DNA of 64,000 nt from Pseudohongiella sp. GTDB taxonomy: Bacteria; Pseudomonadota; Gammaproteobacteria; Pseudomonadales; Pseudohongiellaceae. Both the position numbers and the translations under genes were made by a program. The DNA is taken from positions 62,001-126,000 of the forward strand of contig NZ_DRFV01000010.1 in assembly GCF_011050365.1 (NCBI RefSeq). Reading direction: 5' to 3'. The notes under the pieces were generated by a model that was given only the letters and a program-made list of their open reading frames with translations, did not search any database and was not told where the DNA came from. Shown in pieces: positions 1,318 through 19,430 of this stretch; position 1 is the stretch's first letter; every line of letters starts with the position of its first letter.

Positions 1318-2313
1318 ATGAGCGAAAAAATCTCCGAAAATCAGGCGGCCAGCCGTGAAAAATGGCTTTTATTGATATTCCAGCTACCTTCGAAACCGGC
1401 TTATTTGAGGGTCAAAATCTGGCGAAGACTGCAGGGCATAGGTGCGATTGCTGTCAAAAGCTCCGTCTATGCCCTGCCCGCGAACGAAGAGTCTTTGGAG
1501 GACTATGAGTGGTTACTGCGCGAGATCGAGGAAGGCAGCGGTGAAGGCCTGATTTGTGAAACGCAGTTTGTGGATGGTTTGACTGATGCCCAGGTTCGTC
1601 AACTGTTTGATCAGGCCAGAGATGCGGACTACGACGCTGTGGCAACAGAGGCTCGCGCGCTTGACGAAGCAATCAAGAACGATAAAGAGCAGGAAACGGG
1701 GGATGTGCGCAATCAAATTGTTCGCCTTCGCAAGAAACTAATAGAAATTGAGGCAATCGACTTCTTTGGGGCAAATGGCCGTGAAGCGGCCGAGGGGTTG
1801 CTTTCGGCTCTCGAAGATAATCTCAAGAATGCCACTGAGAAAGTAGATAACGAGGTTAAAAAAACCGCGTCTTCAGCCATTCCACAAGGTAGCGTTTGGG
1901 TGACACGCAAAGGCGTACATGTAGACCGAATTGCATCTGCTTGGTTAATACGACGCTTTATCGATCCGGAGATGCAACTCAAATTCGTGGCGGCCACAGG
2001 ATACATCCCTGAGGATGGCGAGTTGCGATTCGATATGTTTGAAGCCGAATTCACTCATGAAGGTGATAACTGCACATTTGAGGTACTCCTGTTGCGAGCC
2101 GGCTTGGAGGTGCCTGCCCTGCAGAAAATCGCTGAAATTGTTCATGATATAGACATTAAGGACGGCAAGTTCGCCCGAGAAGAAGTCGCCGGCATAAGAA
2201 CCTTGATCACCAGCATCTGCCTGTCGACTTCTGATGACGACGAGCGTATTCGACGGGGCTCAGTCGTGTTCGCCGATCTCTATAGGTATTTCAAAAGGAA
2301 GGGTTTGCAATGA
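1318..2313 (+). CDS. chrB: Chromate resistance regulator ChrB
   Basis: The 331-residue protein matches the two-part ChrB family. The N-terminal part (about 1-135) begins with a KWLLLIFQLPSKPAYLRV-type segment, and a charged linker follows. The C-terminal ChrB domain starts near residue 195 with VWVTRKGVHVDRIASAWLI. In characterised systems ChrB is a chromate-sensing regulator needed for full induction of chrA. Its stop overlaps the chrA start (ATGA at 2310-2313), indicating translational coupling. It starts at the ATG at 1318 with only a weak upstream Shine-Dalgarno sequence. Confidence 0.92.
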   Translation: MSEKISENQAASREKWLLLIFQLPSKPAYLRVKIWRRLQGIGAIAVKSSVYALPANEESLEDYEWLLREIEEGSGEGLICETQFVDGLTDAQVRQLFDQARDADYDAVATEARALDEAIKNDKEQETGDVRNQIVRLRKKLIEIEAIDFFGANGREAAEGLLSALEDNLKNATEKVDNEVKKTASSAIPQGSVWVTRKGVHVDRIASAWLIRRFIDPEMQLKFVAATGYIPEDGELRFDMFEAEFTHEGDNCTFEVLLLRAGLEVPALQKIAEIVHDIDIKDGKFAREEVAGIRTLITSICLSTSDDDERIRRGSVVFADLYRYFKRKGLQ

Positions 2314-3704
2314 CGGACACTCGCAACGTGAAAGCCGAAGATAACGCTCCGGAAACCGGCGGGCATAACATACCTTTTTCGGAAGCATTGTGGGTTTGGA
2401 TGCGGGTCGCTGCACTGTCCTTTGGCGGCCCCGCCGGTCAGATCGCCGTGATGCACCGGATTCTGGTGGAGGAGAAAAAATGGATCGGCGAAAACCGATT
2501 CCTGCATGCGCTGAACTACTGCATGCTCCTGCCGGGACCAGAGGCGCAGCAGCTCGCGATATATATCGGCTGGTTGCTGCACAAGACAAAAGGGGGGCTC
2601 GCTGCCGGCATTCTGTTCGTGCTGCCAGGATTCCTTTCAATTATGGCGCTCAGTTATATCTATGTGCTCTATGGCAACATCAGCGCAGTTGAAGGCTTAT
2701 TCTTTGGCCTCAAGACCGCCGTGTTGGCCATTGTACTGCAGGCCGTCGTGCGAATCGGCTCCCGTGCACTGAAGAATAATGTCATGCTGGGTCTGGCAGC
2801 TGCCGCGTTCGTGGCTATTTTCTTCCTCGGCATACCGTTCCCACTCATTATTCTCTCGGCAGCGCTAATAGGTTACTTCGGTGGCCGTACCGGAATGCCT
2901 GCCTTTGTCATTGATACCAGCCATGGCAAGCAGGGAGAGGGTCTGTCCGATGAGGACTCAGCATTAGGCGCCACCATACCGGCGCATGCCAAACCCACCG
3001 TCTCTTGGTCCATCCGAATATCACTGATTCTGCTGATTCTATGGTTCGGACCGATTGTGTTATTAATCCAGACGGTGGGGATGGAAAATGTCTTTTCCCA
3101 GATAGCCATATTCTTCAGCAAGATGGCGATGGCGACCTTTGGGGGCGCGTACGCTGTTCTCGCTTACGTGAGCCAGGCGGCCGTGGAAAACTTTGGATGG
3201 CTGACCCCAGAAGAGATGCTTGACGGTCTGGGCATGGCGGAAACAACCCCCGGACCGCTGATTCAGGTGGTCCAGTTTGTCGGTTTTTTGGCGGCTTTCC
3301 GGGATCCAGGGACTATGAACCCCTATACAGTTGCGACATTCGCCGCTGTACTGACTACCTGGGTAACATTTGTGCCCTGTTTCTTATGGATTTTTCTGGG
3401 CGCCCCCTTCATTGAAACCTTACGCGGCCATAAGGCACTCTCAGCAGCCCTCGCGGCAATCACGGCGGCAGTGGCGGGTGTCATCCTTAATCTTGCACTC
3501 TGGTTCGCGATGCACGTGCTATTCGAAGTGCGTGAAATCCATGCCTATGGGTTGACGGTAGATGTGCCTGTGCTGAACACGATCGATATACCCTCTTTAC
3601 TAATGACTATCGCTGCGCTACTGGCGGTATTCTACCTCAAGATTGGGATGATAAAGGTTCTCGGGCTTAGCGCTTTGGTTGGGATGGCTTTCTATTCTTT
3701 ATGA
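2310..3704 (+). CDS. chrA: Chromate efflux transporter ChrA
   Basis: This 464-residue inner-membrane protein is a long-chain, two-domain member of the CHR family, which exports chromate from the cytoplasm. The first half has the signature FGGPAGQIAVMH and a PGPEAQQLAIYIG loop. The second half repeats the pattern with FGGAYAVLAYVSQ and AETTPGPLIQVVQF. Around ten or more hydrophobic segments are visible, with a charged cytoplasmic-type loop near residues 205-235 between the halves. It overlaps chrB by four bases. Chromate resistance operons are common mobile-element cargo. Confidence 0.95.
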   Translation: MTDTRNVKAEDNAPETGGHNIPFSEALWVWMRVAALSFGGPAGQIAVMHRILVEEKKWIGENRFLHALNYCMLLPGPEAQQLAIYIGWLLHKTKGGLAAGILFVLPGFLSIMALSYIYVLYGNISAVEGLFFGLKTAVLAIVLQAVVRIGSRALKNNVMLGLAAAAFVAIFFLGIPFPLIILSAALIGYFGGRTGMPAFVIDTSHGKQGEGLSDEDSALGATIPAHAKPTVSWSIRISLILLILWFGPIVLLIQTVGMENVFSQIAIFFSKMAMATFGGAYAVLAYVSQAAVENFGWLTPEEMLDGLGMAETTPGPLIQVVQFVGFLAAFRDPGTMNPYTVATFAAVLTTWVTFVPCFLWIFLGAPFIETLRGHKALSAALAAITAAVAGVILNLALWFAMHVLFEVREIHAYGLTVDVPVLNTIDIPSLLMTIAALLAVFYLKIGMIKVLGLSALVGMAFYSL

Positions 3705-3724
3705 CGTCATTGCGGCCTCGGTAG

Positions 3725-3746
3725 GGGTGGCAGTTATCCGCCACCC
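3725..3746 (+). terminator. Hairpin after chrA
   Basis: Twenty bases past the chrA stop, GGGTGGC (3725-3731) and GCCACCC (3740-3746) form a perfect 7-bp stem with an 8-base loop. No T-tract follows, so it may be a weak or Rho-dependent terminator, or only an mRNA-stabilising hairpin. Confidence 0.4.
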
Positions 3747-3974
3747 TCCGCACAGGGCCGTGAGTGCGAAACTATCGCATTCAGATATGTGTGGAAGAAT
3801 AGGTAAATGAATACGCGACGCAACTGAAACTTTGGGCGCGCAGACCCACTACTTGGATGACGGGGCTGTATCTATCGGCAACAACCAAGCGTAATAGCAG
3901 ATCCTCTGCCTCTCGAAGATTCTTCGCATTAATTGGCACACATAAACAGCTTACAGGTTGCTATGACCGTACTG
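3747..3974. other. Intergenic, no gene seen
   Basis: Between the chrA hairpin and the IS remnant I see no convincing coding frame in either direction. The segment next to the IS truncation point contains GCGTCCGGCCAT on the minus strand (4007-4018). The same 12-mer recurs at 10066-10077, past brxL. It may be scar sequence from earlier rearrangements. Confidence 0.4.
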
Positions 3975-4775
3975 TTACAATCCGGCGCACCTCAGATCAA
4001 GATGTGATGGCCGGACGCTTACGTCGAACACATCAGCACGCGCCATTTCTCGTGTTTTGTAGATGCGCTTCTTTATGCGCTCCTTTTTCAGGCTGCTAAA
4101 AAAGGATTCGGCAACTGCGTTGTCCCAGCAATTGGCACGCCTGCTCATGCTCGGCTCAAGCTTGTTTGATTTGCAAAACCTTACCCAATCATCACTACCA
4201 TACTGTGAGCCCTGGTCTGAGTGGATGATCACCGGCTTTACCGGCTTTCGTCGCCACACGGCCATCATCAACGCGTCAAGCACCAGCTCTCTATGAATCG
4301 TGGGCTTCATCGACCAACCGATGACTTTGCGGGAGAACAGATCCAGCACAACGGCCAGATAAAGCCACCCCTGCCAAGTACGTATATAGGTAATGTCGGT
4401 TACCCAGGCCGTATCCGGTGCTGCGACCGTAAACTCCCGGTTCAGCGCATTGGCAGCAATAAGAGCGGGCCTGCCGCCTTGCGCCCTGGGTGCCTTGTAG
4501 CCTCTAAGGGCCTTGATCTTGTTGCACTTCATGATTCGGGCGACACGATTTTTACCGCAACCCTCGCCAACCTCTCGCAGATCCTGGTACACGCGTGGCG
4601 CGCCATATACGCCACCGCTGCCCTCGTAGGACGCACGGATCAGCCCCAGTAATCGCTGATCCTCGATTGTCCGATCCGATAAGGGCTTGTGCAGCCATTG
4701 GTAGTATCCGGCTCGGGCCACTTTCAGCACACGACACATGGTCTGTATGCCAAACTCGTTGCGATGCTCGAGCAT
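3975..4775 (-). pseudogene. IS3 transposase OrfB, 3' truncated
   Basis: This is the catalytic half of an IS3-family transposase with an rve integrase core. The DDE residues are visible in WVTDITYIRT, IIHSDQGSQYGS and NAVAESFFSSLKKE, and an HTH_21-type region precedes them. Normally it would be made as an OrfAB fusion by -1 frameshifting; an A6G run lies at 4821-4827 near the end of orfA. The usual C-terminal segment after EMARADVFD is replaced by about 17 unrelated residues. Because the end and the left inverted repeat are gone, this copy is unlikely to transpose itself. Confidence 0.85.
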
Positions 4776-4786
4776 GAAACGGTACT

Positions 4787-5071
4787 TTACTCGGGCTCCT
4801 TGGCAAAGTACCGCGCGGCCTTTTTTAGAATATCACGCTCCTCCTCGGTGCGACGAAGTTGCGCTTTAAGAGTGAGAACTTCACTTTTTGCTGCCACCAA
4901 TTCGGCAGCCTGCTGATCGGATTTGTCTGGCTTGATCGCTTTGATCCACTTGTACAGGCTGTGCGCAGAGACACCCAATCGTTCTGAAACTTCGGCCACG
5001 GTATAACCACGTTCGACTATTTGACGAACGGCTTCTTGTTTGAATTCCGGGGTAAATCGTGCATTGCTCAT
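4787..5071 (-). CDS. IS3 transposase OrfA (HTH)
   Basis: This 94-residue protein is typical of IS3-family OrfA. An N-terminal helix-turn-helix (RFTPEFKQEAVRQI to LGVSAHSLYKWI, about residues 5-42) binds the element ends. A leucine-zipper-like coiled coil ending in EERDILKKAARYFA follows. The ribosome binding site AGGAGG lies shortly before the ATG. The slippery A-run near the 3' end is the expected site for -1 frameshifting into orfB. Confidence 0.92.
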   Translation of the reverse strand: MSNARFTPEFKQEAVRQIVERGYTVAEVSERLGVSAHSLYKWIKAIKPDKSDQQAAELVAAKSEVLTLKAQLRRTEEERDILKKAARYFAKEPE

Positions 5072-5092
5072 ATGACTTCCTCCTATGCTAAT

Positions 5093-5172
5093 ATCATAGC
5101 CCGGAAGTGTCTACGGGACTGGGGTAAGTCCAATCATAGCCCGGAAGTGTCTACGGGACTGGGGTAAGTCCA
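5093..5172. repeat. Perfect 40-bp tandem duplication of IS end
   Basis: A 40-base unit (ATCATAGCCCGGAAGTGTCT... through GTAAGTCCA) occurs twice without a mismatch, at 5093-5132 and 5133-5172. Read on the minus strand, each unit starts with TGGACTTACCCC, the IS3 terminal inverted repeat. The element therefore has a doubled right end, possibly from a partial nested insertion or slippage. Confidence 0.9.
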
Positions 5173-5174
5173 AC

Positions 5175-5228
5175 AGACTGCGTTTTCAGTACAGCAAATC
5201 AGGCCCCCAATTATGGCTCATCAACTAA
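5175..5228 (+). pseudogene. Possible 3' remnant of a lost BREX gene
   Basis: From the inner edge of the duplicated IS end, one plus-strand frame is open for 17 codons and stops at TAA 5226-5228, 18 bp before the pglZ start. It encodes LRFQYSKSGPQLWLIN at its end. The spacing fits the tail of an upstream operon gene cut by the IS. The segment is too short to identify, and the reading is inference. Confidence 0.25.
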
Positions 5229-5246
5229 CGCCGGCAGGTGTAACCC

Positions 5247-7868
5247 ATGGACACTAAACAACTACAGCAGGGTCTGCATCAGGCATTTTTCACCGAACAG
5301 CACCGTATCGTGTTCTGGTACGATGCCGAGCAAAGTTTCCGTGAAGAACTCGACCAGCTTGAACTGCCGGGCATCCAGGTGCTGGACATGGCGCAGGAGG
5401 CCAGCCTGGCACTGAAGTTTCGTTTAGAGCTGGACGATCCGAAAGGCAAGTACCTGCTCTATTACCCCAGTGCAGAACCCGACATCAAAGAAGACTGGCT
5501 ACTGGACATCAAACTCTATTCTCGCAGCTTCTACGCCGACCGTATTTCGTTGATATTTAACGAGCTGGGCCTAAGTCAACAAAGCTTGCGTAAACATCTG
5601 GCGAACCGGCAGCGCTTTCTAGCCAACAAAAATCGAATTGCGGCGCTTAAGAGAGTGGTCGCCGTCGATGCTGACTCGGAACAGCTTGACCTGACAATGA
5701 TTGCCGTCACGCTCAGCGCACCTGGCTCTGACATTGCCACCTTGTTGTTTACGCTAGGTGAACAAGCTGCTGCTCATGATCTGGGTTTGGAAACGAACCC
5801 GCCCGCTATTGAGGACTTGATTAAATACGACCTGCTCCCGGCTCTGCTCAGAGCGCTGCAAAATGAAGTAGGGTATCCAGTGAGCGCAGAAGAGCTCAGT
5901 GGAGAGCATACCTTCAGTCTGGGGCAACTGATGATTCGCCTTCTCACCACCGGGTTTTGTGAAAGTGTTGGTGATATACCTGCCTGGGCGAAGAGCATCG
6001 CCATTCCCTCTGCGGGAGCACGAGCAACATCACGTGCTTTGCTCTCCAGGTGGAGAGACAGCTCACGGTTTTATCCCGCTTACGACGCGATTTCACACTG
6101 GGTGGGGAGCGCCCTGCGTATACAGCAGAAGCTCAGCGAACTACCCCTGCCGACATTATCGAACATTGCCACCTTTGAGGCTGCAGAAAAGCAGATTGTG
6201 GTTGAGCTGTGTCATGCGATCCCGCAAGCCGGCGCAATCGACCTGGCGACCCTGGAGCAAATCATCAGAAATCGCCTGGACGGTTACTGGGCTTCGCGCC
6301 ACAAAGACGATCAAACCCGGAAAAAATATCGACTTATTTATGCCGCTCTAAGCGCGGCGATCGATCTGTTTGGCCTACGCCACAGTCACGCTGCAGGGTT
6401 TCACTATCCCAGTTGCGAAGCTATCTATAAGGCGTACGAGAAAGAGCTGTATCGCTTTGATACTGCTTACCGGCATTATATGACAGCCGCACGTAAAGCG
6501 CATATCGATTTGCTACGTGAGCTCGATTCTGCAGTGGAAGCGTGTTACGCGGATTGGTACATTGCTCAGTTATCGCGTAGTTGGAGCGATAAACTTGAAG
6601 CAGAGAATCGTCTGGCCCACTGGCACATGCCTGGCACTCCCGGCCAGCAGCAATTTTACCGCCACTGGGTGCAACCGCAGTTTGATGGCTCGCGCAATAA
6701 ACGTGTCGCCGTCATCATCAGTGATGCCTTTCGTTATGAAGCCGCCGTTGAGCTGCGCGAGCGCATTGACGCTAAAAGGTACAGCCAGGCCAAACTGTCC
6801 AGCCAGTTAGGTGTATTGCCCAGCTATACGACGCTGGGCATGGCGTCACTGCTGCCACACAAGAGCTTGGATTACCGGGAAGGCGCAGGAGACGAGGTAT
6901 TGGCCGACGGTCAGTCCACGAAAGGCACGGCTGCACGGAATAAGGTCCTGACTGCTCATGGTGGCATAGCAGTCAGCGCTGAAGATGTAAAAACCTGGTC
7001 TCGCGAAGCTGGCCGGGAGGCTTTAAAGGACCAACAACTGGTTTATGTCTACCACAACATAGTTGACGCTCGTGGCGACAGCGCCGCCACAGAGGCAGAG
7101 ACCTTTGACGCAGTAGAACAAGCCATAGAAGAATTGGACGAGATGGCTCGTAAAATACTGATGCATTTTAACACCAGCACAGTGATCATCACCGCGGATC
7201 ACGGTTTCCTGTTTCAACAAAGTAAGCCCAACAGCGTAGACAAAACCGAGCTTACCGATGTACCGGGGAATATTATCAAGAGCAAAAAACGCTATGTGAT
7301 TGGTCCTTCATTGCCCCACAACAAGGAAGTATGGCACGGCAATACAAAACACACGGCCAGCACCAGCAGTGACACTGAGTTCTGGATCCCTAAGGGAGCC
7401 AACCGCTTTCATTTTGTTGGCGGAGCCCGTTTTGTGCACGGCGGCGCCATGCCTCAAGAAATTGTGGTGCCGGTGCTGACAGTGAACCAGCTCCGCGGTG
7501 AAAAGGCCGAGCGACGCTCGATGCGCAAAGTGGAAGTTATCTCTGCCCGCTCTAGCCTCAAGATGGTAAACAACATCCAACGCTTTGATTTGCTGCAAAC
7601 CGAGGCAGTCAGTGACAGAGTCATGCCCGTAACGCTGTCAGTGGGTATCTACGACGGCGACCAGTTGATCTCCAGTGAGGAGACCGTGACATTCGATTGC
7701 AGTACCGACTCCATGAGCGAGCGCACTAAGCAGGTACGGCTGTCGCTGCAAGGCAGCGACTTTGATCGCAAACGCGATTACTTCCTGGTGCTGAAGGACA
7801 AAGATCTGAAAACCGAAACCGAGCGCTACCGGGTCATTATTGATCTAGCCATTACCAACGACTTTTAA
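5247..7868 (+). CDS. pglZ: BREX phosphatase-like protein PglZ (type 1)
   Basis: The 873-residue protein matches the PglZ family of BREX phage-defence systems, which has an alkaline-phosphatase-like core. The metal-binding blocks are visible: VAVIISDAFRYEA with Asp493, and VIITADHGFLF with Asp651 and His652. A long helical N-terminal half precedes them and a beta-rich tail follows. The length fits type 1 (PglZ-A). PglZ is required for BREX defence and methylation in studied systems. brxL follows after 15 bp. The expected upstream genes brxA, brxB, brxC and pglX are absent and an IS3 remnant sits there, so this locus is probably a remnant. Confidence 0.92.
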   Translation: MDTKQLQQGLHQAFFTEQHRIVFWYDAEQSFREELDQLELPGIQVLDMAQEASLALKFRLELDDPKGKYLLYYPSAEPDIKEDWLLDIKLYSRSFYADRISLIFNELGLSQQSLRKHLANRQRFLANKNRIAALKRVVAVDADSEQLDLTMIAVTLSAPGSDIATLLFTLGEQAAAHDLGLETNPPAIEDLIKYDLLPALLRALQNEVGYPVSAEELSGEHTFSLGQLMIRLLTTGFCESVGDIPAWAKSIAIPSAGARATSRALLSRWRDSSRFYPAYDAISHWVGSALRIQQKLSELPLPTLSNIATFEAAEKQIVVELCHAIPQAGAIDLATLEQIIRNRLDGYWASRHKDDQTRKKYRLIYAALSAAIDLFGLRHSHAAGFHYPSCEAIYKAYEKELYRFDTAYRHYMTAARKAHIDLLRELDSAVEACYADWYIAQLSRSWSDKLEAENRLAHWHMPGTPGQQQFYRHWVQPQFDGSRNKRVAVIISDAFRYEAAVELRERIDAKRYSQAKLSSQLGVLPSYTTLGMASLLPHKSLDYREGAGDEVLADGQSTKGTAARNKVLTAHGGIAVSAEDVKTWSREAGREALKDQQLVYVYHNIVDARGDSAATEAETFDAVEQAIEELDEMARKILMHFNTSTVIITADHGFLFQQSKPNSVDKTELTDVPGNIIKSKKRYVIGPSLPHNKEVWHGNTKHTASTSSDTEFWIPKGANRFHFVGGARFVHGGAMPQEIVVPVLTVNQLRGEKAERRSMRKVEVISARSSLKMVNNIQRFDLLQTEAVSDRVMPVTLSVGIYDGDQLISSEETVTFDCSTDSMSERTKQVRLSLQGSDFDRKRDYFLVLKDKDLKTETERYRVIIDLAITNDF

Positions 7869-7883
7869 GATGAGATTGACACC

Positions 7884-9923
7884 ATGGACAACTTGCCCAC
7901 AAAAGACCTGGACCAACTGCTTAACGAGCATTTCGCCGGACGTGTGGTTCGCAAAGACCTGACCAAGCTGATCAAGGAAGGGGCTAACGTACCGGTATAC
8001 GTACTCGAGTATCTGTTAGGTATGTATTGTGCTACCGACGATCAGGAAGTGATCGACGAAGGGCTCAGGAATGTTAAAACCATTCTGGCAGAGAACTATG
8101 TCCGCCCCGATGAGGCCGAGAAGATCAAATCGCTGGCCAGAGAGCGCGGCACGTATAGGGTGATTGACCGAGTCACAGTCCGCCTGAATGAAAAGAAAGA
8201 CCGTTATGAAGCGGCGTTCAGCAATCTGGGCATTAAAGACGCTGAAATATCAGCAGGTATCGTAAAGGAGAATGAAAAGCTGCTGGTAGGCGGAATCTGG
8301 GTCATTGCGACACTAAGTTACTTCCACGATGAAGGGCAACCGGGCTCTCCGTTCAGTGTCACTTTGTTAAAGCCTATACAGATGCCCAACATGAATATGG
8401 CCGAGCTGTTTGACGGCAGACGACAGTTGAACACCGATCAATGGCGCGAAACGCTTATGCGCTCTATTGGCATGGAGCCTTCCACACTGGAAACAGACGT
8501 TCAGTGGCACCTGCTGGCCCGAATGATTCCGTTTGTGGAAAACAACTATAATGTCTGCGAACTCGGCCCTCGTGGCACCGGTAAAAGTCATATCTACAAG
8601 GAGTGTTCTCCCAACAGCATATTGGTGTCTGGCGGCCAGACAACGGTCGCTAACCTGTTCTACAACATGAGCACCCGGCGCATAGGGCTGGTAGGTTTAT
8701 GGGATGTTGTCGCCTTTGATGAGGTGGCTGGCATCAAGTTCTCCGACCGCGATGGTGTGCAGATCATGAAGGACTTTATGGCTTCAGGATCCTTCGCGCG
8801 TGGCCGGGAGCAAATGGAAGCCTCAGCCTCCATGGTATTTGTCGGCAATATCAATCACAGCGTCGAGAGTCTGGTCAAAACCAGTCACCTACTGGCCCCC
8901 TTCCCTGACGCCATGATCGATTCAGCATTCTTTGACCGCTTTCACGCTTACATACCCGGCTGGGAAATACCCAAAATGCGGCCCGAGTTTTTTACCAACC
9001 GCTACGGCCTGATTACGGACTATCTTGCAGAGTTTTTTAGGGAGATGCGGAAGCGTGGATTTGCCGACGCTATTGATAAATACTTCAAGCTTGGAAACAA
9101 TCTCAACCAGCGCGATGTGATAGCAGTACGCAAGACTGTCTCTGGCCTTTTAAAACTTCTTCATCCCCATGGTGAGTTCGAAAAAGACGATGTACGCCCG
9201 TGCCTGGAGTACGCATTACAAGTTCGTCGGCGTGTCAAAGAACAGCTCAAAAAAATTGGCGGCATGGAGTTTTACGATGTGCATTTTAGCTACATCGATA
9301 ATGAAACCATGGAAGAGCATTTTGTTTCTGTCAAAGAACAGGGAGGCGGGAAACTGATACCAGAAGGCCCAGGGAAACCGGGAATCGTGCACACGATTGG
9401 GCTTGGTTACAGGGATATGCCCGGCGTCTACAGAATAGAGCTGCAGGTTACCAAAGGTTCTGGGAAACTGGCGACTTCGGGCCTTTGGAATCTGAATCCG
9501 GCGAAGGAGCAGGTACGGATAGCCTTTGATTACTTCAAGGCGAATGCGACAAGGATCAGCGGCAGCGCCAAGGTTATGGATCATGACTTTCATTTGCATG
9601 TTGTTGACCTGCAAAGCACTGGCCCCTTGATACCACTTGCGCTATCCAGCCTGGTTGCATTCTCTTCCGGACTGCTTGGCCGCCCCGTGCAGAACCAACT
9701 TGTGGTATTGGGCGAGATGTCTCTGGGCGGCTCTGTCACACCCGTGGAAAGCCTCGCCGAGTGTATGCAGGTAGCATTTGATGCCGGCGCCAAGCGGGTC
9801 GCCATGCCAATGGCTAGCGCCAAGGATTTGCCAACTATACCTGCAGAGCTTTTTACCAAGTTCCAGACCAGTTTCTATGGGGACCCGGTCGAGGCTGTGT
9901 TTAAGGCGCTGGGGGTAGATTGA
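7884..9923 (+). CDS. brxL: BREX Lon-like ATPase BrxL
   Basis: This 679-residue protein matches BrxL. An N-terminal helical region is followed by an AAA+ ATPase with Walker A GPRGTGKS (residues 228-235) and a DVVAFDEVAGI Walker B region. The C-terminal Lon-protease-like domain contains LGEMSLGGSVTPV. BrxL is the effector-like last gene of type 1 BREX operons; reported forms bind DNA as ring-shaped oligomers. It is co-transcribed with pglZ. With brxC and pglX missing, normal BREX modification is not expected from this locus alone. Confidence 0.93.
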   Translation: MDNLPTKDLDQLLNEHFAGRVVRKDLTKLIKEGANVPVYVLEYLLGMYCATDDQEVIDEGLRNVKTILAENYVRPDEAEKIKSLARERGTYRVIDRVTVRLNEKKDRYEAAFSNLGIKDAEISAGIVKENEKLLVGGIWVIATLSYFHDEGQPGSPFSVTLLKPIQMPNMNMAELFDGRRQLNTDQWRETLMRSIGMEPSTLETDVQWHLLARMIPFVENNYNVCELGPRGTGKSHIYKECSPNSILVSGGQTTVANLFYNMSTRRIGLVGLWDVVAFDEVAGIKFSDRDGVQIMKDFMASGSFARGREQMEASASMVFVGNINHSVESLVKTSHLLAPFPDAMIDSAFFDRFHAYIPGWEIPKMRPEFFTNRYGLITDYLAEFFREMRKRGFADAIDKYFKLGNNLNQRDVIAVRKTVSGLLKLLHPHGEFEKDDVRPCLEYALQVRRRVKEQLKKIGGMEFYDVHFSYIDNETMEEHFVSVKEQGGGKLIPEGPGKPGIVHTIGLGYRDMPGVYRIELQVTKGSGKLATSGLWNLNPAKEQVRIAFDYFKANATRISGSAKVMDHDFHLHVVDLQSTGPLIPLALSSLVAFSSGLLGRPVQNQLVVLGEMSLGGSVTPVESLAECMQVAFDAGAKRVAMPMASAKDLPTIPAELFTKFQTSFYGDPVEAVFKALGVD

Positions 9924-10213: not shown

Positions 10214-11143
10214 TTAAACCACAGCATTTCGCCTGTGCAATTGGAATTCAGATAAGCTAAACGACATTATTTGCAGGAGAACTAATGACAGCCAATACAT
10301 AGCTACTGGATTTATGAAGCTAAAAAATGTATCTGAGTCGACTATTCTATTGCTTTTGATGTTGTTCGGGACAATGCTTTGGTTGTGAAAAAATCGATTG
10401 CGTATATGAATAATAAAACTACCCATATCACAATAATTTATAGATATTTTTTCGAATTCAGTTGTATCCTCGTGCAGTATTCCCAGATCTATAGCTTCCT
10501 TTACAGACCTAAACATTTGCTGCCTCACTAAATCATTAGCTACGTCAAATTTTATATCGACGGAAGTCTGAGCGATACTATCCCCTTCGTATAACGTTAC
10601 TGCAAATTTTTTAAAGAACCCAAGCTCTTTCTTTTCACTGTCTCCGGTCATGAGATTCCTTAATTGGTTGAATGAACGCATGAAATCTTGGGTTTTAGAT
10701 GCGTATATTAGCGGAAAAGCGTAAGATACTTTTTCTAGTATCCGATACAAAAATATAAATGCAGAAGTATGAGATGCTTTTCTTTCCTGCAGCAAAAAAT
10801 GCGATATTTCTGACAATATCGCTTCATAGAATTTATTGTTGGTAAACTTAGTATTATTAATGAATATTGCAAGATCTTCGGCGGTTGTATCCTCGGACAG
10901 CAGCCTGGGGAAATCTCTTCCCCAATTTCTAAAGCGAGATAAATCACTATGAAAGTAATTCTTCCTGCTTTTAATTATCGTGTCCGAGTAGTTATGAGTA
11001 AGTATTACGTTGCCAGATAAAAGACGCAGTATTAGTAGTAATTCTGGATTTCTACTTTCTTTAATCTTAAGAAATTCCGGAATCCTTTCCTTTATTCTGC
11101 TGGGGAGATTGTCTGAGTAGCTGAAAGTTAGATAATCAGCCAT
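10214..11143 (-). CDS. Unknown protein with HEPN-like RNxxxH motif
   Basis: I do not recognise this 309-residue protein as a named family. It is rich in predicted helix, with a helical segment LYRILEKVSYAFPL near 132-145. A C-terminal IHIRNRFFHNQ (Arg248, Asn249, His253) matches the Rx4H signature of HEPN ribonucleases, including the Asn after Arg, and a hydrophobic helix follows. HEPN proteins often act as toxins or defence effectors; that role is inferred here. Its start overlaps the stop of the DGQR-motif gene by one base (TAATG), so the two are almost certainly co-translated. Base composition is AT-rich compared with neighbours, suggesting separate acquisition. Confidence 0.7.
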   Translation of the reverse strand: MADYLTFSYSDNLPSRIKERIPEFLKIKESRNPELLLILRLLSGNVILTHNYSDTIIKSRKNYFHSDLSRFRNWGRDFPRLLSEDTTAEDLAIFINNTKFTNNKFYEAILSEISHFLLQERKASHTSAFIFLYRILEKVSYAFPLIYASKTQDFMRSFNQLRNLMTGDSEKKELGFFKKFAVTLYEGDSIAQTSVDIKFDVANDLVRQQMFRSVKEAIDLGILHEDTTEFEKISINYCDMGSFIIHIRNRFFHNQSIVPNNIKSNRIVDSDTFFSFINPVAMYWLSLVLLQIMSFSLSEFQLHRRNAVV

Positions 11144-12165
11144 TAAGAGGTAGTCTCCATAAATACCTCAGTCAGTTCCAGCTCATCTAGATTTGAATAC
11201 TTGAAATAGTTCTCTATGTAAACCTGGGATAGCTCTCGTCTATATTTACCTAAATTAACTTTTGAAGGATTAATATTCCTAAACGCTGACTCGAATAAAT
11301 CAATGGACCTTTCAAAGTCTTCGATCGTTGATTCAGATATTTCGCGATATGAACTTTTAATTCCTACTGAAAAACCAATTAGGTTATTTCCCACTTTCAG
11401 CCACTTTTTAACTCTTTGGCTTTCGCTCAAGCGGTCTATTTCACGGACTACGTCTTTGAAGTCAATGTCATCGAACTTAGGTTGCTTATCCATGATTCGA
11501 CCAACGATAATCTGGTCCATTTTCTCACCGATAATTTTATTGTTATCGTTGTTAACTGTCCCAGTCAGAAATGCGAGGTATGCCTTAGACAAATCGCCCA
11601 AATCAAAGGATCCCTTAACTAGATTTTCGGCACGCTCTCTCTCTGACTGAACCGTTATACTGACATCCGAGAAATCGAATAACTCATGAGTTAATATCTC
11701 GATCTGATGTCGTGGAGTCATAGGCTTTTGGCCATTGTTAAGTGTTATCATCCTATATAGAAGCTTATCCTCCGAAGGCGATATGATTACATTAATATAC
11801 AAAGGCTGAGTGCCATCAAATCTCGCATCCTCGCTTGCCCGCCGCAGGGTGTTGAGTCTTTGAATTCCATCAAGGATATAGCCCGAATCGATATTGTCCA
11901 TTATATATTTTGAGATTTCTGCATTTTCTGTAAGTGAGAATCCTTTCTCAACAAACGCAATTGTGATTGGTGGCATTAGACAGTGATCTAAGATGTCCCG
12001 TTCAAGACGTGCGTAGAATTTTCTATCTTGAATTTTACGCTGTCCTGAAAATCGATCAATGAGTGGGAAAAGGTTCTCTATTGCATACTGATAGGTAGTT
12101 TTACCAGTCGCAACAACGCTGCCTATAACGTTATCATTGGCCGTATCGAAAATTATTACGCTCAA
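11143..12165 (-). CDS. DGQR-motif (DUF262/DGQHR/DndB-like) protein
   Basis: This 340-residue protein carries GYILDGIQRLNTL at residues 95-107. That closely resembles the DGQQRLTTL core of DUF262 proteins and the DGQHR motif of DndB-like proteins. A second conserved-looking block, TLNNGQKPMTPRHQIE (141-156), sits where those families have their LN-G segment. In relatives such as GmrS and SspE this fold binds or hydrolyses nucleotides and controls nuclease activity. It is the upstream gene of a two-gene operon with the HEPN-motif protein. Composition is AT-rich. The family assignment is by motif; the function is inference. Confidence 0.7.
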   Translation of the reverse strand: MSVIIFDTANDNVIGSVVATGKTTYQYAIENLFPLIDRFSGQRKIQDRKFYARLERDILDHCLMPPITIAFVEKGFSLTENAEISKYIMDNIDSGYILDGIQRLNTLRRASEDARFDGTQPLYINVIISPSEDKLLYRMITLNNGQKPMTPRHQIEILTHELFDFSDVSITVQSERERAENLVKGSFDLGDLSKAYLAFLTGTVNNDNNKIIGEKMDQIIVGRIMDKQPKFDDIDFKDVVREIDRLSESQRVKKWLKVGNNLIGFSVGIKSSYREISESTIEDFERSIDLFESAFRNINPSKVNLGKYRRELSQVYIENYFKYSNLDELELTEVFMETTS

Positions 12166-12845
12166 GAATATTTCCTCTGTATTCCCAACATAGAATACTT
12201 ATATAATATTTCTATTAAATGAACTTTACTTACACGCTTACAAAACGAGCTTATTGCAATTTTCATTCGCCAATCGAGGGCTCAGTAAAGCGCTAATTCT
12301 TCCAGACATCTTAGACAAGCGATATTTCGCGGTTTTTCTACCCGCCCCACCATCGCCAATGCACGAATTCTACGAGAATAGTAAAATTCTATCTAGCCTG
12401 ACAGATACTAGCGGAACTGTTTAGCAAAGCCAGAATTGACCATTACTCCCTGTACTGAAAAGAGGATAATTCGACGTGCAATCTTCGCTAAGCGCACTAT
12501 AGGGTTCCTTCCAAGCTTGCTTGATATTCGTTAACCAACTGAAATACATTACCAAAAACCTTCGCCTATCCAACTGGTCGGATTGAGCGGGTAGAAACGT
12601 TTAATCTAATTGATAAATAAAGAAAATGCCACTAAACACATCAAAAGTCTGTATCGCAAGCCACGGCGGGGGATGGCCTGATATGGCCTCACGATTGGGC
12701 TTAATATAATCTTGTCCACGCTACGCACTTCAATCTCTAAAATTTATAGACCTTTTTTTGTATATGCCGTTCACGATTTAGGATCGAGCTTATGTATCGC
12801 TTGTTTCCCGCACATCTAGGTGCACAGGTGTGAGAGAAACTTTTT
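12166..12845. other. 680 bp AT-rich region, no gene seen
   Basis: No plausible coding frame was found on either strand. The region lies upstream of the DGQR gene (leftward) and of the DNA-binding protein gene (rightward), so it should hold both promoters. It may also be a junction between cargo and the conjugation-related backbone, because the base composition changes on its right side. Confidence 0.5.
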
Positions 12846-12883
12846 GAAGCAAATCGTATCAGTTTTGTGATACGATTTGCTTC
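12846..12883. promoter_or_regulatory. Perfect 16-bp palindrome, likely operator
   Basis: GAAGCAAATCGTATCA (12846-12861) and its exact complement (12868-12883) flank a 6-base GTTTTG loop. It sits immediately before the rightward gene encoding a putative DNA-binding protein. A dimeric autoregulator site is the simplest reading; a hairpin terminator is less likely because only a short T-rich stretch follows. Confidence 0.6.
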
Positions 12884-12909
12884 GTTTTGTTACGGTTTGT
12901 GGGGTGGGT

Positions 12910-13434: not shown

Positions 13435-13947
13435 TTAGATGTTGTGAAATACATGAGCTTTTTCGAAACCAACCTCGATTACTAATAGATCTCCGTTCAT
13501 TCTCATATCCCGTCCCATTGCTTCATAATCTATATATGGTGCTAAATGCTCAGGAACATCACCGCACTGCTCTGTCAATTCCTGTGCGTAGTCAGCCAAG
13601 GATGCATAAAAACCGCAATAACCCTCCTCAGCGATTAGCCGCGCTTGCTCTAAATCTCCAATTACGTTTAGCAGCTGACCGCCGAACTCTGAAAAATCAG
13701 ACATAAATTCAGCAACCTCGCACAAAATCTCAATACTTTCATACTCAGCCACGGTATATCCGTTAAAACCCTCGTAATCGTGAATTGCATGTTCTTCAGC
13801 CCCTGGCATTGGTGACGCTCTAAGCATTTCCTGAATTTGATCTCGAATGCACCCTGCACCTTCTAAAACCTCAATCCACCGACCGTGCAATACACCACTG
13901 TTGTAGGCGGATAGGTCTGCGACATAGATTCGGGGAGTGTTAGTCAT
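13435..13947 (-). CDS. ardA: Antirestriction protein ArdA
   Basis: The 170-residue protein starts at ATG 13947 with a GAGGA ribosome binding site; upstream in-frame extension is non-coding. It begins MTNTPRIYVADLSAYNSG followed by LHGRWIEV, diagnostic of ArdA. It is highly acidic throughout, as expected for a DNA mimic that blocks type I restriction enzymes. In plasmids ArdA protects incoming DNA during transfer. A cluster of strong hairpins lies 50-170 bp upstream. Confidence 0.92.
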   Translation of the reverse strand: MTNTPRIYVADLSAYNSGVLHGRWIEVLEGAGCIRDQIQEMLRASPMPGAEEHAIHDYEGFNGYTVAEYESIEILCEVAEFMSDFSEFGGQLLNVIGDLEQARLIAEEGYCGFYASLADYAQELTEQCGDVPEHLAPYIDYEAMGRDMRMNGDLLVIEVGFEKAHVFHNI

Positions 13948-13998
13948 TGTCAAATCCTCATTAGGCCTTATGGGTATGTGTTCGCGGTTGCGCACATA

Positions 13999-14113
13999 CC
14001 CTCTGCCGACAGAGGGCGACTCGGGCGGGGGTGAAAAAATCAACAAAAATCGCGGAGGCTCCGCCGCGTGGATACCGTCTATTTTTGTTGATTTTGAGGG
14101 GTGAAGGACCCCT
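13999..14113. promoter_or_regulatory. Nested hairpin cluster upstream of ardA
   Basis: Three perfect inverted repeats are packed in 115 bp. CCCTCTG/CAGAGGG lies at 13999-14016. A 15-bp arm AAAATCAACAAAAAT (14036-14050) pairs with 14081-14095 and encloses a GC-rich inner hairpin. AGGGGT/ACCCCT lies at 14097-14113. In conjugative plasmids such as ColIb-P9, hairpin-forming single-strand promoters (ssi/Frpo) drive early ardA expression on entering DNA. This could be such a promoter, or part of an origin of transfer. Confidence 0.55.
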
Positions 14114-14331
14114 GCATGAAAATAGCGCTGAAAAATAGAGGCTTGTGACCTCTGACAGTATTTCGACCGCTTTCGTAATTTAAATCTTGGAGTAGAATAT
14201 ACGGGCGACTCCAATTTATGCGTAAGCACGTCTTATCCTGCGATCCGCTAAACAAGCAAAAGGCCGGATGCTACGCGCCGCTGTTTTGAGCATTATGAGC
14301 GCGACGTTGCCAAGCAATGAGGAGAGAAGGA

Positions 14332-14895
14332 ATGCATTTTTTCAAGATAACCTATTGTTTGATCGCCGGATTAATGATGGCTGGCTGCGAAACAGCTCGA
14401 CCAATACACGTCGAGCGATACGTTTCTAACCCATCAACGCTACAAGCGCTCCTAAAAAGTCCGGCCACAAGCGTCTCAGTTGGTAAAATAGAAAATGGTG
14501 TAGGTATTGAAACAACACTTGACTGTCTCAACGAGGGCATTCCCTTCCCTGACTTGGCCACAGCTGGGGACTATATCCGATCTGGCCTGATCGCTGAGCT
14601 TAGCAATGCAGATCAATTCGAAGTCAATGCAACCAATTCGATAGCAGGTAGTGTGGTCGTGGCAGAGTTGACTTTCGAAAGAAAGATCATGTTAGCTGCT
14701 CATGGTGGCACTTGGAATTTTGAAGTAAACCTGACTTCAACAAATGGCCAATCTATGACCGTCAAGTCCAGTCATAGCTACCATACAGGCTATGCCCCTA
14801 TCAGGTGCAACATAGCAGCAGATTACCTGATGCCAGCTATCCAAACTCTTATTTATGACATCGTTAGAACTCCAGATTTCCAAAAACTATTCTGA
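14332..14895 (+). CDS. Putative lipoprotein
   Basis: A 187-residue protein is predicted from ATG 14332, preceded by an AGGAGAG ribosome binding site; an in-frame ATG at 14317 is less likely because the site lies after it. The N-terminus has a hydrophobic stretch ending in a lipobox, GLMMAGC, so it should be lipid-anchored after signal peptidase II cleavage. The rest shows no domain I recognise. It lies between ardA and the relaxase gene, with which it is convergent. An entry-exclusion or envelope role is possible but not shown by the sequence. Confidence 0.7.
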   Translation: MHFFKITYCLIAGLMMAGCETARPIHVERYVSNPSTLQALLKSPATSVSVGKIENGVGIETTLDCLNEGIPFPDLATAGDYIRSGLIAELSNADQFEVNATNSIAGSVVVAELTFERKIMLAAHGGTWNFEVNLTSTNGQSMTVKSSHSYHTGYAPIRCNIAADYLMPAIQTLIYDIVRTPDFQKLF

Positions 14896-14926
14896 AGCCG
14901 CTGTTCAATGGTACACCCGGTCACAG

Positions 14927-17566
14927 TTACGCTCCCAATTCCAGATCCTGGCGTTTATCGAGTGGTCTCAGTTGAAGCGCCGCTCGCTTGCAGGCCTCGT
15001 ACTCCAGCAAATCTACAGTCGACTCTTTTATGTTTGATCGGGACAGACGTGCTGCCAGCCATCGTATTCGCTCCGCTTGTGACGGCTCTGTATCGCGATC
15101 GATAAACGGAGCAGACTGCCCGAGGCGGATGCTTTTGTTGACGATATTTTTATTAACCACAAGTTGTGTGCTGTCACGCGCGCGACTGGCCGCTACGTAT
15201 GTATCATGTTTGTCATAGGCAGGGCTAAGCAGCACAATCGCGTTATCGACAGTCAGGCCTTGCGCTCCGTAAATAGTCGATGCGTAGGCGTGGCTGATTG
15301 GCAATCGATTTTTATCATCAGCCAGTGTGGACAGTGGGAAACTTAAGCGGCGGCCGTGGATGCTGACATCTACGACTTGAGTCTCTAGATCAGCATTCTC
15401 CGTTCGACCCGCAACGTGCAAGACAGTTGCTGTCGTGCCGTTGATTACACCCAACCCGTCGTCCCGTTTCAGGAACCGTATCTCATCTCCGGCGGCCAAA
15501 TTAATTTTGGCCGTGTGACCCGAAGGTGTAATCGTACTCAGTGGTATTTCCGGGCCGTAAACGACTCCTTCGGCTTTTAATCGAGACCTGATTTGCTCAT
15601 TAATGGCTCGAACTTCCGCATTCGTTTTGGCTATGAGCAGCATAGATTTAGCAGGATTTGACCGACGGAGTTGTGCCCAGCGATCACCAATCTCTCTGAT
15701 TGATGCAGCGTCTCCTTCAGCTTCTATGAGGAGGCCGCGCTCGGCAAAAGCCCCGAGCGCGGCCCCAGCATCTCCGTTTCCAAGCGCTGTCACTGCGTCG
15801 CGTGCCCACGCCTCGTGCTGTCTAACAATAGTGGATACACTACTGTTTTCTACTGCCCTGGCTACCAATGGGAGCCCACCAGCTCCCCCTATGGCCTGCA
15901 GCTGATCCCGATCACCAACAAGTACAACTTTGGCTCCAGATTTCTCGACAGCCTGGAGCAGCTTGTGGGTATCCTCCGAGCTCATGAGTCCAGCTTCATC
16001 AACGATCAACAAAGTGCGATGATCGAGGAATCGATGGTTATGATGAGCGACCTCGAGCCACGACGCCAGCGCGCGGGTTTCTATCTGAAGGTCGACTTTC
16101 AATTCATTGGCAATGCGCCAGGCTGATGCGGCGCCAATTACTCGCAACCCAGCGTTTTTATACGCCTCAACGATCGGTGCCAGTGTAGTAGTTTTTCCAG
16201 ACCCTGGACTGCCTTCAATACAAGCGATTCGAGCGGTGCTGCAAGCGGCGAGAGCTGCTGCTGATTGTTCCACACTTAATCCGTGCTGCTGGAAGCGCTC
16301 CGTTATGTCTGCTGGATCAATCTCGTGCCAGTTCTCCTGGGCCATGTTGGATGCGATGTGGACCACATTCTTTTCAATCTTGATGCGATCTGGCGTTGAG
16401 TATCGAAGCGCACCTATAACGTCGGTACCCAGAGCTACAAAATCATCGTCTTTGACGAGACCCTCAATTCGATTGGCAATCTGCTCAGGTGTCAGCCCTG
16501 AGCCGACCAGTTCAGCTGTTCCCGCTCGAATCAGGTCGCGCCGATCAACTACACTGCGTGTTTCCATCAACTCGCAGATTACGTCCGATCGGTAATCTGG
16601 AAGGATATCAGCGGATAGCGTCGCTAGGTCTCGACCATTTGCAGCCTCCAATGCCAGCCTATGGAGGTCAGAAATGTCGAAACCGTTGGCAAGTGCTGCT
16701 TCTCTCCAGATCTGGTCGCTATCAAGATCGTGGCTCGGCAGCTTTGCAGATCGGGTTGATTTGGATACAGATGCAGCCAGTTCTGGAGATTCTTTACCTG
16801 TTGTACCTGCTTCAGATAGCTCGTCGACAATCTCATTGTGTCTCGCACTGAAGTATCCGATAATCTCGTCATCAATTCCCGCAATCTCGAAAGTACCATT
16901 GTGACCAATTCGATCTATCGTGTATCCCAGTTTTTGTAGTTCGAAGGCAAGTGCAGCGTGATATGTGGCGCCTGCCGCCATTTTCCAGTCGCGTAGTACA
17001 GTGGAATGAAGCGCACCGATAGTGCCATCTGCTCGAACTGCCAAGTTCGGTATCACACAGTGGGTGTGAAGGTTTGGGTCACCAAACTCCCGCCCATCAC
17101 TATGTCGTGCAGGGCGGCTGTCTCCGTGCTGAAAACACGCGGCTGTCAGGGCGACCTTTTCGTAAAAAAGACCGCCTTTACCTCGCCGGCCGTAACTAGC
17201 CTCCCGCTCCAAGACACTCAGAGCTGCGCGGACTGCTTTGGCCTGCGCGTGCTCAATCGCTAATTTAGTTTCAGGGCCTCCGCCGGCCCACAGGAGCGAC
17301 ACGGACCGAGAGGCTGACATTGTGTAATCGAAAGCCGGTATACGGTCAGTACGCCTACCGGAAGCAGGCAAAAGAGACTCGCCATTAGTATCAATACCGG
17401 CGAATAGGTTTTCAAATTCTCTAATATCAACTTGACTACCGTCATAAATGTCGAGTTGACCCGAAGGACAGTACCAGACCGAAGGAATATGATTGCCCTC
17501 CAAGTAATACTGAGTTTGAGTTGTGTAGTAACTGCTGCTTGCTGCGGGATTCCACGTGGCCACCAT
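14927..17566 (-). CDS. MobF-family conjugative relaxase-helicase (TrwC/TraI type)
   Basis: This 879-residue protein nicks and unwinds the transferred strand. The N-terminal relaxase domain has paired tyrosines at 13-14 and 20-21 and the metal-binding histidines His147, His167 and His169 (DPNLHTHC). A superfamily 1 helicase follows, with Walker A GSPGSGKTT (452-460) and Walker B LLIVDEAGLM. It is shorter than R388 TrwC and F TraI. A terminator-like hairpin separates it from the coupling-protein gene upstream, so it may have its own promoter. A cognate oriT should be within this element. Confidence 0.93.
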   Translation of the reverse strand: MVATWNPAASSSYYTTQTQYYLEGNHIPSVWYCPSGQLDIYDGSQVDIREFENLFAGIDTNGESLLPASGRRTDRIPAFDYTMSASRSVSLLWAGGGPETKLAIEHAQAKAVRAALSVLEREASYGRRGKGGLFYEKVALTAACFQHGDSRPARHSDGREFGDPNLHTHCVIPNLAVRADGTIGALHSTVLRDWKMAAGATYHAALAFELQKLGYTIDRIGHNGTFEIAGIDDEIIGYFSARHNEIVDELSEAGTTGKESPELAASVSKSTRSAKLPSHDLDSDQIWREAALANGFDISDLHRLALEAANGRDLATLSADILPDYRSDVICELMETRSVVDRRDLIRAGTAELVGSGLTPEQIANRIEGLVKDDDFVALGTDVIGALRYSTPDRIKIEKNVVHIASNMAQENWHEIDPADITERFQQHGLSVEQSAAALAACSTARIACIEGSPGSGKTTTLAPIVEAYKNAGLRVIGAASAWRIANELKVDLQIETRALASWLEVAHHNHRFLDHRTLLIVDEAGLMSSEDTHKLLQAVEKSGAKVVLVGDRDQLQAIGGAGGLPLVARAVENSSVSTIVRQHEAWARDAVTALGNGDAGAALGAFAERGLLIEAEGDAASIREIGDRWAQLRRSNPAKSMLLIAKTNAEVRAINEQIRSRLKAEGVVYGPEIPLSTITPSGHTAKINLAAGDEIRFLKRDDGLGVINGTTATVLHVAGRTENADLETQVVDVSIHGRRLSFPLSTLADDKNRLPISHAYASTIYGAQGLTVDNAIVLLSPAYDKHDTYVAASRARDSTQLVVNKNIVNKSIRLGQSAPFIDRDTEPSQAERIRWLAARLSRSNIKESTVDLLEYEACKRAALQLRPLDKRQDLELGA

Positions 17567-17655
17567 TTCTAACTACCTCAATCGATTAGTTGACGGGTAC
17601 TTTTCTCATGGATCCACATGTCAAAATTAGATTTTGAATAAAAATAGGAAAAAAT

Positions 17656-17678
17656 GGCCGTTTTAGTTACAAACGGCC
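17656..17678 (-). terminator. Rho-independent terminator after coupling protein gene
   Basis: GGCCGTTT (17656-17663) and AAACGGCC (17671-17678) form a perfect 8-bp stem with a 7-base loop. On the minus strand it is followed by ATTTTTTCC. It sits 20 bp past the coupling-protein stop and about 90 bp before the relaxase start. Confidence 0.7.
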
Positions 17679-17699
17679 TTCGCAATAGCTGCTGGCGGA

Positions 17700-19430
17700 C
17701 TAAGAAAGAGGTTTGTGTCGATTGACGTTCCTTTTCTTGCGATGTATTTTTTGAACAGGGACATGTGACGGCCTTCGTTCAATCCAAGATGTGAAAGGAA
17801 TGTTTACTATAGCTGGCACACCCAGCCCAAAAATTGCTGTTCTGACCTGAAGCTGACCATTGATTTTTCGAACGCCTAAATCATCTGATAGTTGATGAGC
17901 CTCAATGACTGATATTTTCGACTCTCGGCGCGTCGAAGGGTGATCTTTTCTGGCCGGATCCCATGTAACAACCGTACGACTACCAGCATACTTTTCCACG
18001 ACACGGCCCCGAGTTTCACTTATACCAAGCTGACAAACGACTTTTATTCTGAAGCGAGCTTCAAGTGTCTTAGCATCTTCGTCTCCATAATTCTTTATAA
18101 CTTGCTCCCAATCCTGTGCTGCGGCAATGCATCGCACGCCTTTTTCGCGGCCCACATTGAGTAACTCTGGCAATCGGTGCAGTTTTTTTAGCACAGGAAG
18201 CTCATCTAAAATCATGTATAACCACGGCGACGAACGCTTGGGCATCTTTGCTGAAAGAATTTTTCCGGCAATGACCTCAACCAATAGTCCATTTATAGCT
18301 GTTGACAGATTCGGGTGTTCCGAGGAGTTTTGGAGGACCAATTTGCCTGGTAGGTTAGAGTCTACTGACAGCCACTCTGAAATGCTGAACCGTCGTGATT
18401 TTGGTGTGCGTCTAGAGAGCTCTACAAACGGTAGGATATTTGTTAGCGCCGCGATCCACAAGGTCAAGAGAATGGATTGAGTTGTCCGATTTATTTGCCC
18501 ATCGGTCTCCACAACGATCAGCACCGAATCTGGAGAACCGTTCTTTTCCAAGGTTTCCTTTAGATCCTTAGCAGATTGAAATATCTGCCCGTTTAAGTGC
18601 TCCCAGGTCCAATTGACGCCATGCTGCTTTCGTAGGCATTCGATTAGGCCGGTTAGCACTCTCCTGGCCGAATTCGGCCAGACGCTATCTCCGGTATCTG
18701 CAGATTGAATAAATTTTGCGGAGAACTCCGCTGAATCCTGGCTGTTTCTAATATCACGACCGGGCTCCCAACACCAACTTCGTCCGTCATTGATGGCACT
18801 GAGTATGAAATTATCCTCAGGTAACTCGGCTGTGAAGTCGCCTTTGGCGCAATGAATTACGAGACGATAGTCGTGTTGAAGGATTTGTTCTAGCCACCCT
18901 CTAAGAATTCCTGTTTTGCCAGATCCATGATCGCCCAATAGGATCGTATAAAACGACTCTGCTGCGCGCGTCAGTTGCACATACGGCATCAACCATAGGC
19001 AATCCTTGTCAGGCTTCCCGTCACGCTTAAGTTTTGCTCTGATTGATCCTCTGCCATCGGAGTCATATAGGAGTCGGGTGCCCTGAATCGTTTGTGCAGT
19101 TTCTCGTAGGGGTATGTGCCTGATTTTATAAAAAAACGCAACTGATCCTCCGGTAACGCCTGCGAGCACGATCACAATCAGCTGCCATTTTATGGCAGGA
19201 ATCTCCAATAGTGATTTCGTGTTTTGTAGGCGGCAACCAATATCGATGCCGCAGCCACTCCCCTGAGCTATGAAGCCGACAGACCAAACGTATTCCCAAA
19301 CATCTGACAGGTTAACCTGCAGGCTTGTAAAATCCCTGTCCCACCAGTGTATAGTTGCCACACCAAAAACGAGTGTCATTGTCAAAAGGGCAATTGTGAC
19401 TGACGTCAATAGCGGTTTCCGTGTATACAT
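17700..19430 (-). CDS. Type IV coupling protein (TrwB/TraD-like)
   Basis: This 576-residue inner-membrane ATPase links the relaxosome to a secretion channel. Two N-terminal membrane segments (about 8-28 and 82-102) flank a short periplasmic part. A RecA-like motor follows, with Walker A GDHGSGKT (166-173), Walker B YMILDELP near 410, and AAAQDWEQV. The C-terminus is strongly basic. The gene lies upstream of the relaxase in the same orientation, as in R388, and overlaps nothing. Since no mating-pair genes are seen, it may connect to a helper element's channel. Confidence 0.88.
   Translation of the reverse strand: MYTRKPLLTSVTIALLTMTLVFGVATIHWWDRDFTSLQVNLSDVWEYVWSVGFIAQGSGCGIDIGCRLQNTKSLLEIPAIKWQLIVIVLAGVTGGSVAFFYKIRHIPLRETAQTIQGTRLLYDSDGRGSIRAKLKRDGKPDKDCLWLMPYVQLTRAAESFYTILLGDHGSGKTGILRGWLEQILQHDYRLVIHCAKGDFTAELPEDNFILSAINDGRSWCWEPGRDIRNSQDSAEFSAKFIQSADTGDSVWPNSARRVLTGLIECLRKQHGVNWTWEHLNGQIFQSAKDLKETLEKNGSPDSVLIVVETDGQINRTTQSILLTLWIAALTNILPFVELSRRTPKSRRFSISEWLSVDSNLPGKLVLQNSSEHPNLSTAINGLLVEVIAGKILSAKMPKRSSPWLYMILDELPVLKKLHRLPELLNVGREKGVRCIAAAQDWEQVIKNYGDEDAKTLEARFRIKVVCQLGISETRGRVVEKYAGSRTVVTWDPARKDHPSTRRESKISVIEAHQLSDDLGVRKINGQLQVRTAIFGLGVPAIVNIPFTSWIERRPSHVPVQKIHRKKRNVNRHKPLS

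Follow-up and report, generated by a model that had tools for sequence, protein, structure and literature searches.

The known system closest to the genes studied here is Dazbog. This defence system requires its DUF262 gene, whose product likely recognises methylated DNA (PMC10952713). Phage methylases can activate Dazbog, and a 2025 review calls the mechanism unclear (PMC12409349). Here we describe a pair of overlapping genes, dzbA-like and dzbB-like, in a 64,000-nucleotide stretch of the Pseudohongiella sp. contig NZ_DRFV01000010.1 (hereafter, the window; Table 1). We estimate a probability of about 0.7 that the two genes form an anti-phage (abortive-infection) module and a deeply diverged variant of Dazbog, in which a DzbA-like sensor controls a HEPN ribonuclease (RNase).

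Several other systems share parts of this architecture. GmrSD, BrxU, SspE, and DndI have a ParB/DUF262 domain with a DGxQR motif (for DndI, PMC11662687), but they combine DUF262 with DUF1524, whereas the window pair has no DUF1524 match and a second protein, of the HEPN type, is predicted to be the effector. PD-T4-2 is tabulated under both DUF262 and HEPN (PMC10952713), so that one defence system has both; the window proteins match no PADLOC model except DzbA. The ptuXYZ operon also encodes a DUF262 protein and a predicted RNase, although this RNase has a BECR fold and the operon includes a P-loop ATPase (PMC11980606). HEPN/MNT and other HEPN toxin pairs are likewise two-gene units with a HEPN effector; in the window pair, however, the protein that accompanies the HEPN effector is of the ParB/DUF262 type and not a nucleotidyltransferase.

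A conserved pair of DUF262/ParB-type and HEPN-type genes

The first-pass annotation, made from the window alone, reported a 340-residue protein with the motif LDGIQRLNTL and a 309-residue protein with RNRFFH, encoded by AT-rich genes that are joined by a TAATG overlap and lie beside bacteriophage exclusion (BREX) genes on a mobile element. All of this was borne out. The open reading frames (ORFs), the motifs, and the overlap were as described; LDGIQRLNTL spans residues 98–107 and includes D99. The GC content is 39.0% in the dzbA-like gene and 35.6% in the dzbB-like gene, against 53.7% in the window (brxL, 51.4%; relaxase, 52.6%). The surroundings include pglZ, brxL, ArdA, a TrwC relaxase, and a TrwB-type coupling protein. 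The dzbA-like gene starts with TTG, and its relatives L005 and L002 begin at that alignment column.

A search with the DzbA-like protein or its alignment retrieved 79 related loci. A full-length partner was encoded directly downstream in 73 of them, counted by profile and length alone, independently of any motif; the intergenic gap ranged from -71 to +38 bases when the longest ORFs were taken. The other six loci, in equal numbers, run off a contig end (L006, L008, L075) or are without an intact partner (L053, L057, L079). The set has some redundancy: L078 equals L003, L060 equals L005, and a single metagenome-assembled genome is the source of both L074 and L075. The pairwise identities of the two families were correlated over 69 pairs (Mantel r 0.81), a value reached by none of 2,000 permutations (best permuted value, 0.11), with a mean identity of 44% for the DzbA-like proteins and 25% for the partners. 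In the reverse direction, the partner profile picked out four genomes among 345. These are exactly the ones with an adjacent window-type DzbA, and two of them were already known to carry the pair. It also matched seven viral contigs, all of which encode DzbA. The two genes are a real, nearly constant, and conserved two-gene unit, and both protein families co-evolve. The proposed coupling of a DUF262/ParB-type to a HEPN-type protein, which was to be doubted if the homologues were rarely neighbours, therefore stands.

Loci L053, L057, and L079 have an 88-aa remnant of the partner, no partner, or a partner in pieces, a natural loss of the effector only. Such loci, together with two surveys in which no window-type partner was found without DzbA, match the expectation for a partner that is toxic by itself. 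A plain toxin–antitoxin pair, with a HEPN toxin and a DzbA-like antitoxin whose main role is to keep the mobile element stable and which do not specifically sense phage, would explain this and the overlapping two-gene arrangement on mobile elements, and HEPN proteins are known as toxins of such pairs (PMC3710099). We nevertheless consider it unlikely, because DzbA is large, is more conserved than its partner, and has an NTPase/DNA-recognition fold, and because Dazbog is a tested defence system (PMC10952713). The toxin–antitoxin and defence readings could be compatible with each other.

The DzbA-like protein matched the PADLOC DzbA model PDLC03835 with an E value of 2.1e-43 over residues 5–333, and an alignment of 73 window-type rows matched a canonical DzbA by hhalign (E 1.2e-25). 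D99, G100, Q102, and R103 were invariant in all 73 rows. The family GmrSD_N/DUF262 (PF03235) was matched by 70 of these rows at E values up to 10 (best 5e-7); the window protein itself had no PF03235 match. In the predicted structure, the top 28 VIA rows were all ParB-type, sulfiredoxin, SspE, BrxU, or DndI. Foldseek searches of the model against PDB and BFVD gave nothing under 1e-3, the best rows being BrxU, ParB, Noc, and PadC. Searches of both window proteins in Pfam, NCBIfam, and PDB sequences gave nothing useful, and phage records contained no match to the DzbA-like protein. The modelled structure indicates a ParB/sulfiredoxin/DUF262 fold carrying the DGxQR motif.

Given the resemblance of this fold to GmrSD, BrxU, SspE, and DndI, the DzbA-like protein might itself cut or bind modified DNA in a type IV-like restriction system, with the HEPN protein as an accessory. 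This is very improbable, as neither window protein matched the DUF1524 nuclease in Pfam or NCBIfam at E values up to 10 and the conserved catalytic-type motif lies in the partner.

HEPN domains are defined by an Rx4-6H motif with a polar residue after the arginine; the motif ends helix 3, an acidic residue is on helix 2, and an insert separates the two helices (PMC3710099). The partner has R248, N249, and H253. Its predicted helices are 103–121, 125–149, 237–252, and 270–308, which we numbered H1 to H4 from the secondary-structure line of the predicted model. R-x4-H ends helix 237–252, E137 is on an earlier helix, and residues 150–236 lie between. The helix context of R248–H253, where the HEPN assignment could have failed, thus agrees with the HEPN helix order in the model.

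We aligned 72 partners, which were picked partly by motif (270–345 aa and RN/RHxxxH anywhere). This set leaves out L072 (404 aa), the duplicate L060, and the six loci with a lost, broken, or contig-end partner. H253 and E137 were present in 72 of 72 rows and R248 and N249 in 71; the single exception at R248 was a lysine in L068, where the aligned motif is KNRYFH. The pattern R[NHDSC]xxxH occurred by chance in 7.3% of 14,400 shuffled window-type partners and in 6.6% of 2,600 shuffled canonical ones. The conservation of R-x4-H is therefore beyond chance, given its near-invariance among relatives and the low rate in shuffles. Catalysis has been lost in some HEPN families (PMC3710099), and the partner could be a non-catalytic RNA-binding protein, but the conservation of all four residues makes this hardly credible.

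The VIA list for the partner model was headed by HEPN proteins; in Foldseek searches of PDB and BFVD, nothing scored under 1e-3. The window partner matched no curated model tried in Pfam, NCBIfam, or PADLOC; models of Csx1, Cas13, and ApeA gave weak matches in a few of the 72 rows. By sequence and predicted helices, the partner fits the published HEPN pattern, and its role as an RNase is predicted.

Comparison with canonical Dazbog

The window pair has the gene order of Dazbog, with A before B. At canonical loci, too, the protein encoded by the second gene has R-x4-H, and a Glu within a Y-x3-E stretch is conserved there. In one canonical locus (L091, again as L106), DzbA and DzbB matched their models with E values of 4.9e-145 and 3.9e-70, and DzbB carries RNLFVH. 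Surveys of 398 and 345 genomes found 17 DzbA loci in 15 genomes at E 1e-10, five of them window-type; from three of the surveyed genomes, the survey centres G419 and G411 and also G405, the pair had been known before. The gene next after DzbA encoded an R-x4-H protein in all 17 loci, canonical ones included; here, position next to DzbA defined a partner, and the motif played no part in the choice. The R, the H, and one Glu were shared by all 13 canonical or other partners. The DzbA-like protein is a homologue of the known Dazbog DzbA, and the pair is not the undescribed unit that the first-pass annotation proposed.

An hhalign comparison of window-type partners with these 13, which were chosen by adjacency to DzbA, aligned 148 columns at an E value of 3e-5 and a probability of 73%, and both LYR-x-LE and R-N-x3-H fell in register. 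It replaced an earlier comparison (E 1.1e-4, probability 57%) that included L095, a protein without DzbA nearby. The canonical partner profile reached some window-type partners with E values down to 2.1e-8 (the window's own only at 0.2); with the window-type profile, no canonical partner scored above shuffles.

In the PADLOC definition of Dazbog, the window has the DzbA homologue, but its partner did not match the DzbB model even at E 10, so we file the pair as a Dazbog variant and not as Dazbog proper. Only 5 of the 72 window-type partners matched that model at E values up to 10 (best 2.9e-5); the remaining 67 failed, and such pairs would therefore be recorded as a half-system or missed. The window-type partners are also shorter, mostly about 300 aa (285–404) compared with 353–447 in canonical loci. 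A DzbA tree of 39 rows (the window, L002, every third other window-type row, and 13 canonical or other) had one branch, of length 2.42 and support 100/100, that separates 26 window-type from 13 canonical or other sequences, with the caveat that long branches meet inside the canonical group.

Most likely, the pair represents a variant of Dazbog that is widespread and deeply split. A shared HEPN type of window-type partners and canonical DzbB is well supported by these sequence comparisons; the two DzbB families are also likely to be direct orthologues, although this is weakly shown. The findings suggest a HEPN ribonuclease identity for DzbB proteins generally. None of the literature passages on Dazbog that we consulted, which do not include its founding papers, calls DzbB a HEPN protein.

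The DzbB model found 5 of 398 genomes, four of them with an adjoining DzbA. L095 (again as L101) encodes an R-x4-H protein that matched the DzbB model (E 7.5e-6) with no DzbA within about 4 kb; it is probably another HEPN protein, because it has no nearby DzbA and was missed by the 13-partner profile. Among 14 control genomes, Thermotoga maritima matched the DzbB model at E 10, not at 1e-5. Phage records had no match to canonical DzbB, and one scan of viral contigs with canonical DzbB found no relative. DzbA also branches deeply at two further sets of loci (L107, L117, L118; and L109, L110, L123), each of which has R-x4-H partners of its own, so DzbA–HEPN modules seem to be of several types.

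Genomic context and distribution

Table 1. Positions of the gene pair, its motifs, and the neighbouring genes in the window
Feature	Position	Strand	Description
dzbA-like gene	11143..12165	-	340 aa, TTG start; predicted ParB/DUF262-type sensor/nucleoside triphosphatase (NTPase)
dzbB-like gene	10214..11143	-	309 aa, ATG start; predicted HEPN ribonuclease effector
LDGIQR, residues 98-103	11857..11874	-	predicted nucleotide-binding DGxQR of DUF262 proteins
RNRFFH, residues 248-253 (R248, N249, H253)	10385..10402	-	predicted catalytic HEPN R-x4-H motif
TAATG stop/start overlap between both genes	11141..11145	-	read from sequence
AGAGGA, ribosome-binding-site-like	12173..12178	-	precedes TTG start of dzbA-like gene
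BREX pglZ (context only)	5247-7868	+	Pfam PglZ 1.7e-61
BREX brxL (context only)	7884-9923	+	Pfam BrxL_ATPase 2.1e-142
ArdA, TrwC relaxase, TrwB-type coupling protein of mobile element (context only)	13435..19430	-	Pfam

The pair sits between pglZ–brxL, on the opposite strand, and the ArdA, TrwC, and TrwB-type genes. Upstream of it, at window 12845–12884, is a strong hairpin that resembles a terminator and contains a perfect inverted repeat of 16 bases. We rejected a role as a BREX accessory: six BREX proteins (two from the window and four from the complete operon of L103) had no match at E 1e-6 in the ORFs of 81 related loci, with flanks of at most about 8 kb. Of the interpretation first put forward, then, the coupling of DUF262/ParB and HEPN proteins is supported, and the novelty and the special tie to BREX are not; that the first protein senses nucleotides or modified DNA and controls the RNase is an inference. 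In L020, one ORF after the pair looks like PglZ, as recognised by eye only.

The BREX operon itself is split (window 1318–9923; L105, C10:44000-63500), with brxA, brxB, brxC, and pglX upstream of the window; pglX was matched in two pieces. Between pglX and pglZ are, in order, a SIR2-looking ORF, an IS66-looking transposase, a dehydrogenase-looking ORF, chromate-resistance-like genes, and an IS3-type element, several of these names being assigned by eye. A perfect tandem duplication of a 40-base unit (window 5093–5172) lies between the IS3-type element and pglZ. On the Acinetobacter piscicola plasmid of L103, a different DUF262 gene and a DUF3696 gene, which we take to be Menshen-like, are found downstream of the complete BREX operon, past an IS3 element.

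A Pfam census of 139 flanking ORFs from L004–L082 (those over 1,000 aa dropped) included, among the best 25 families, nine phage integrases, four HNH_2, and three cytosine methylases, as well as housekeeping genes; we claim no enrichment, because only the top 25 families were considered, without a control.

Relatives of the pair occur in at least five phyla and in viral contigs, and one is on a mobilisable Lactiplantibacillus plasmid, adjoining type I restriction-modification genes. The unit is sparsely distributed: in the window's phylum, 398 genomes yielded two carriers at E 1e-5, one of them the genome of the window itself.

Proposed mechanism

In DndI, ATPase activity is stimulated by DNA modification, ATP hydrolysis alters the conformation of the protein, and the substitution R87A in D-G-Q-Q-R abolishes the ATPase (PMC11662687). 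By analogy, the DzbA-like protein may bind a nucleotide and sense a sign of invasion, most likely modified phage DNA, for example by methylation, and its nucleotide state may gate the HEPN RNase. It would either keep its partner inactive or switch it on upon sensing. The partner would be a metal-independent HEPN RNase that uses its R248/H253 site to cleave cellular RNA, perhaps tRNA, and the cleavage would stop growth ahead of phage multiplication.

We lean towards the view that in all Dazbog-type systems, canonical or window-type, a ParB/DUF262 protein senses modified phage DNA and gates a HEPN RNase, and that the window-type loci are a second, widespread type, half missed by the models as its DzbB has diverged. 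The main value of the pair is as a lead on how Dazbog works: the presence of an R-x4-H protein after DzbA at every surveyed locus gives the testable hypothesis that a modification-sensing RNase switch lies behind Dazbog.
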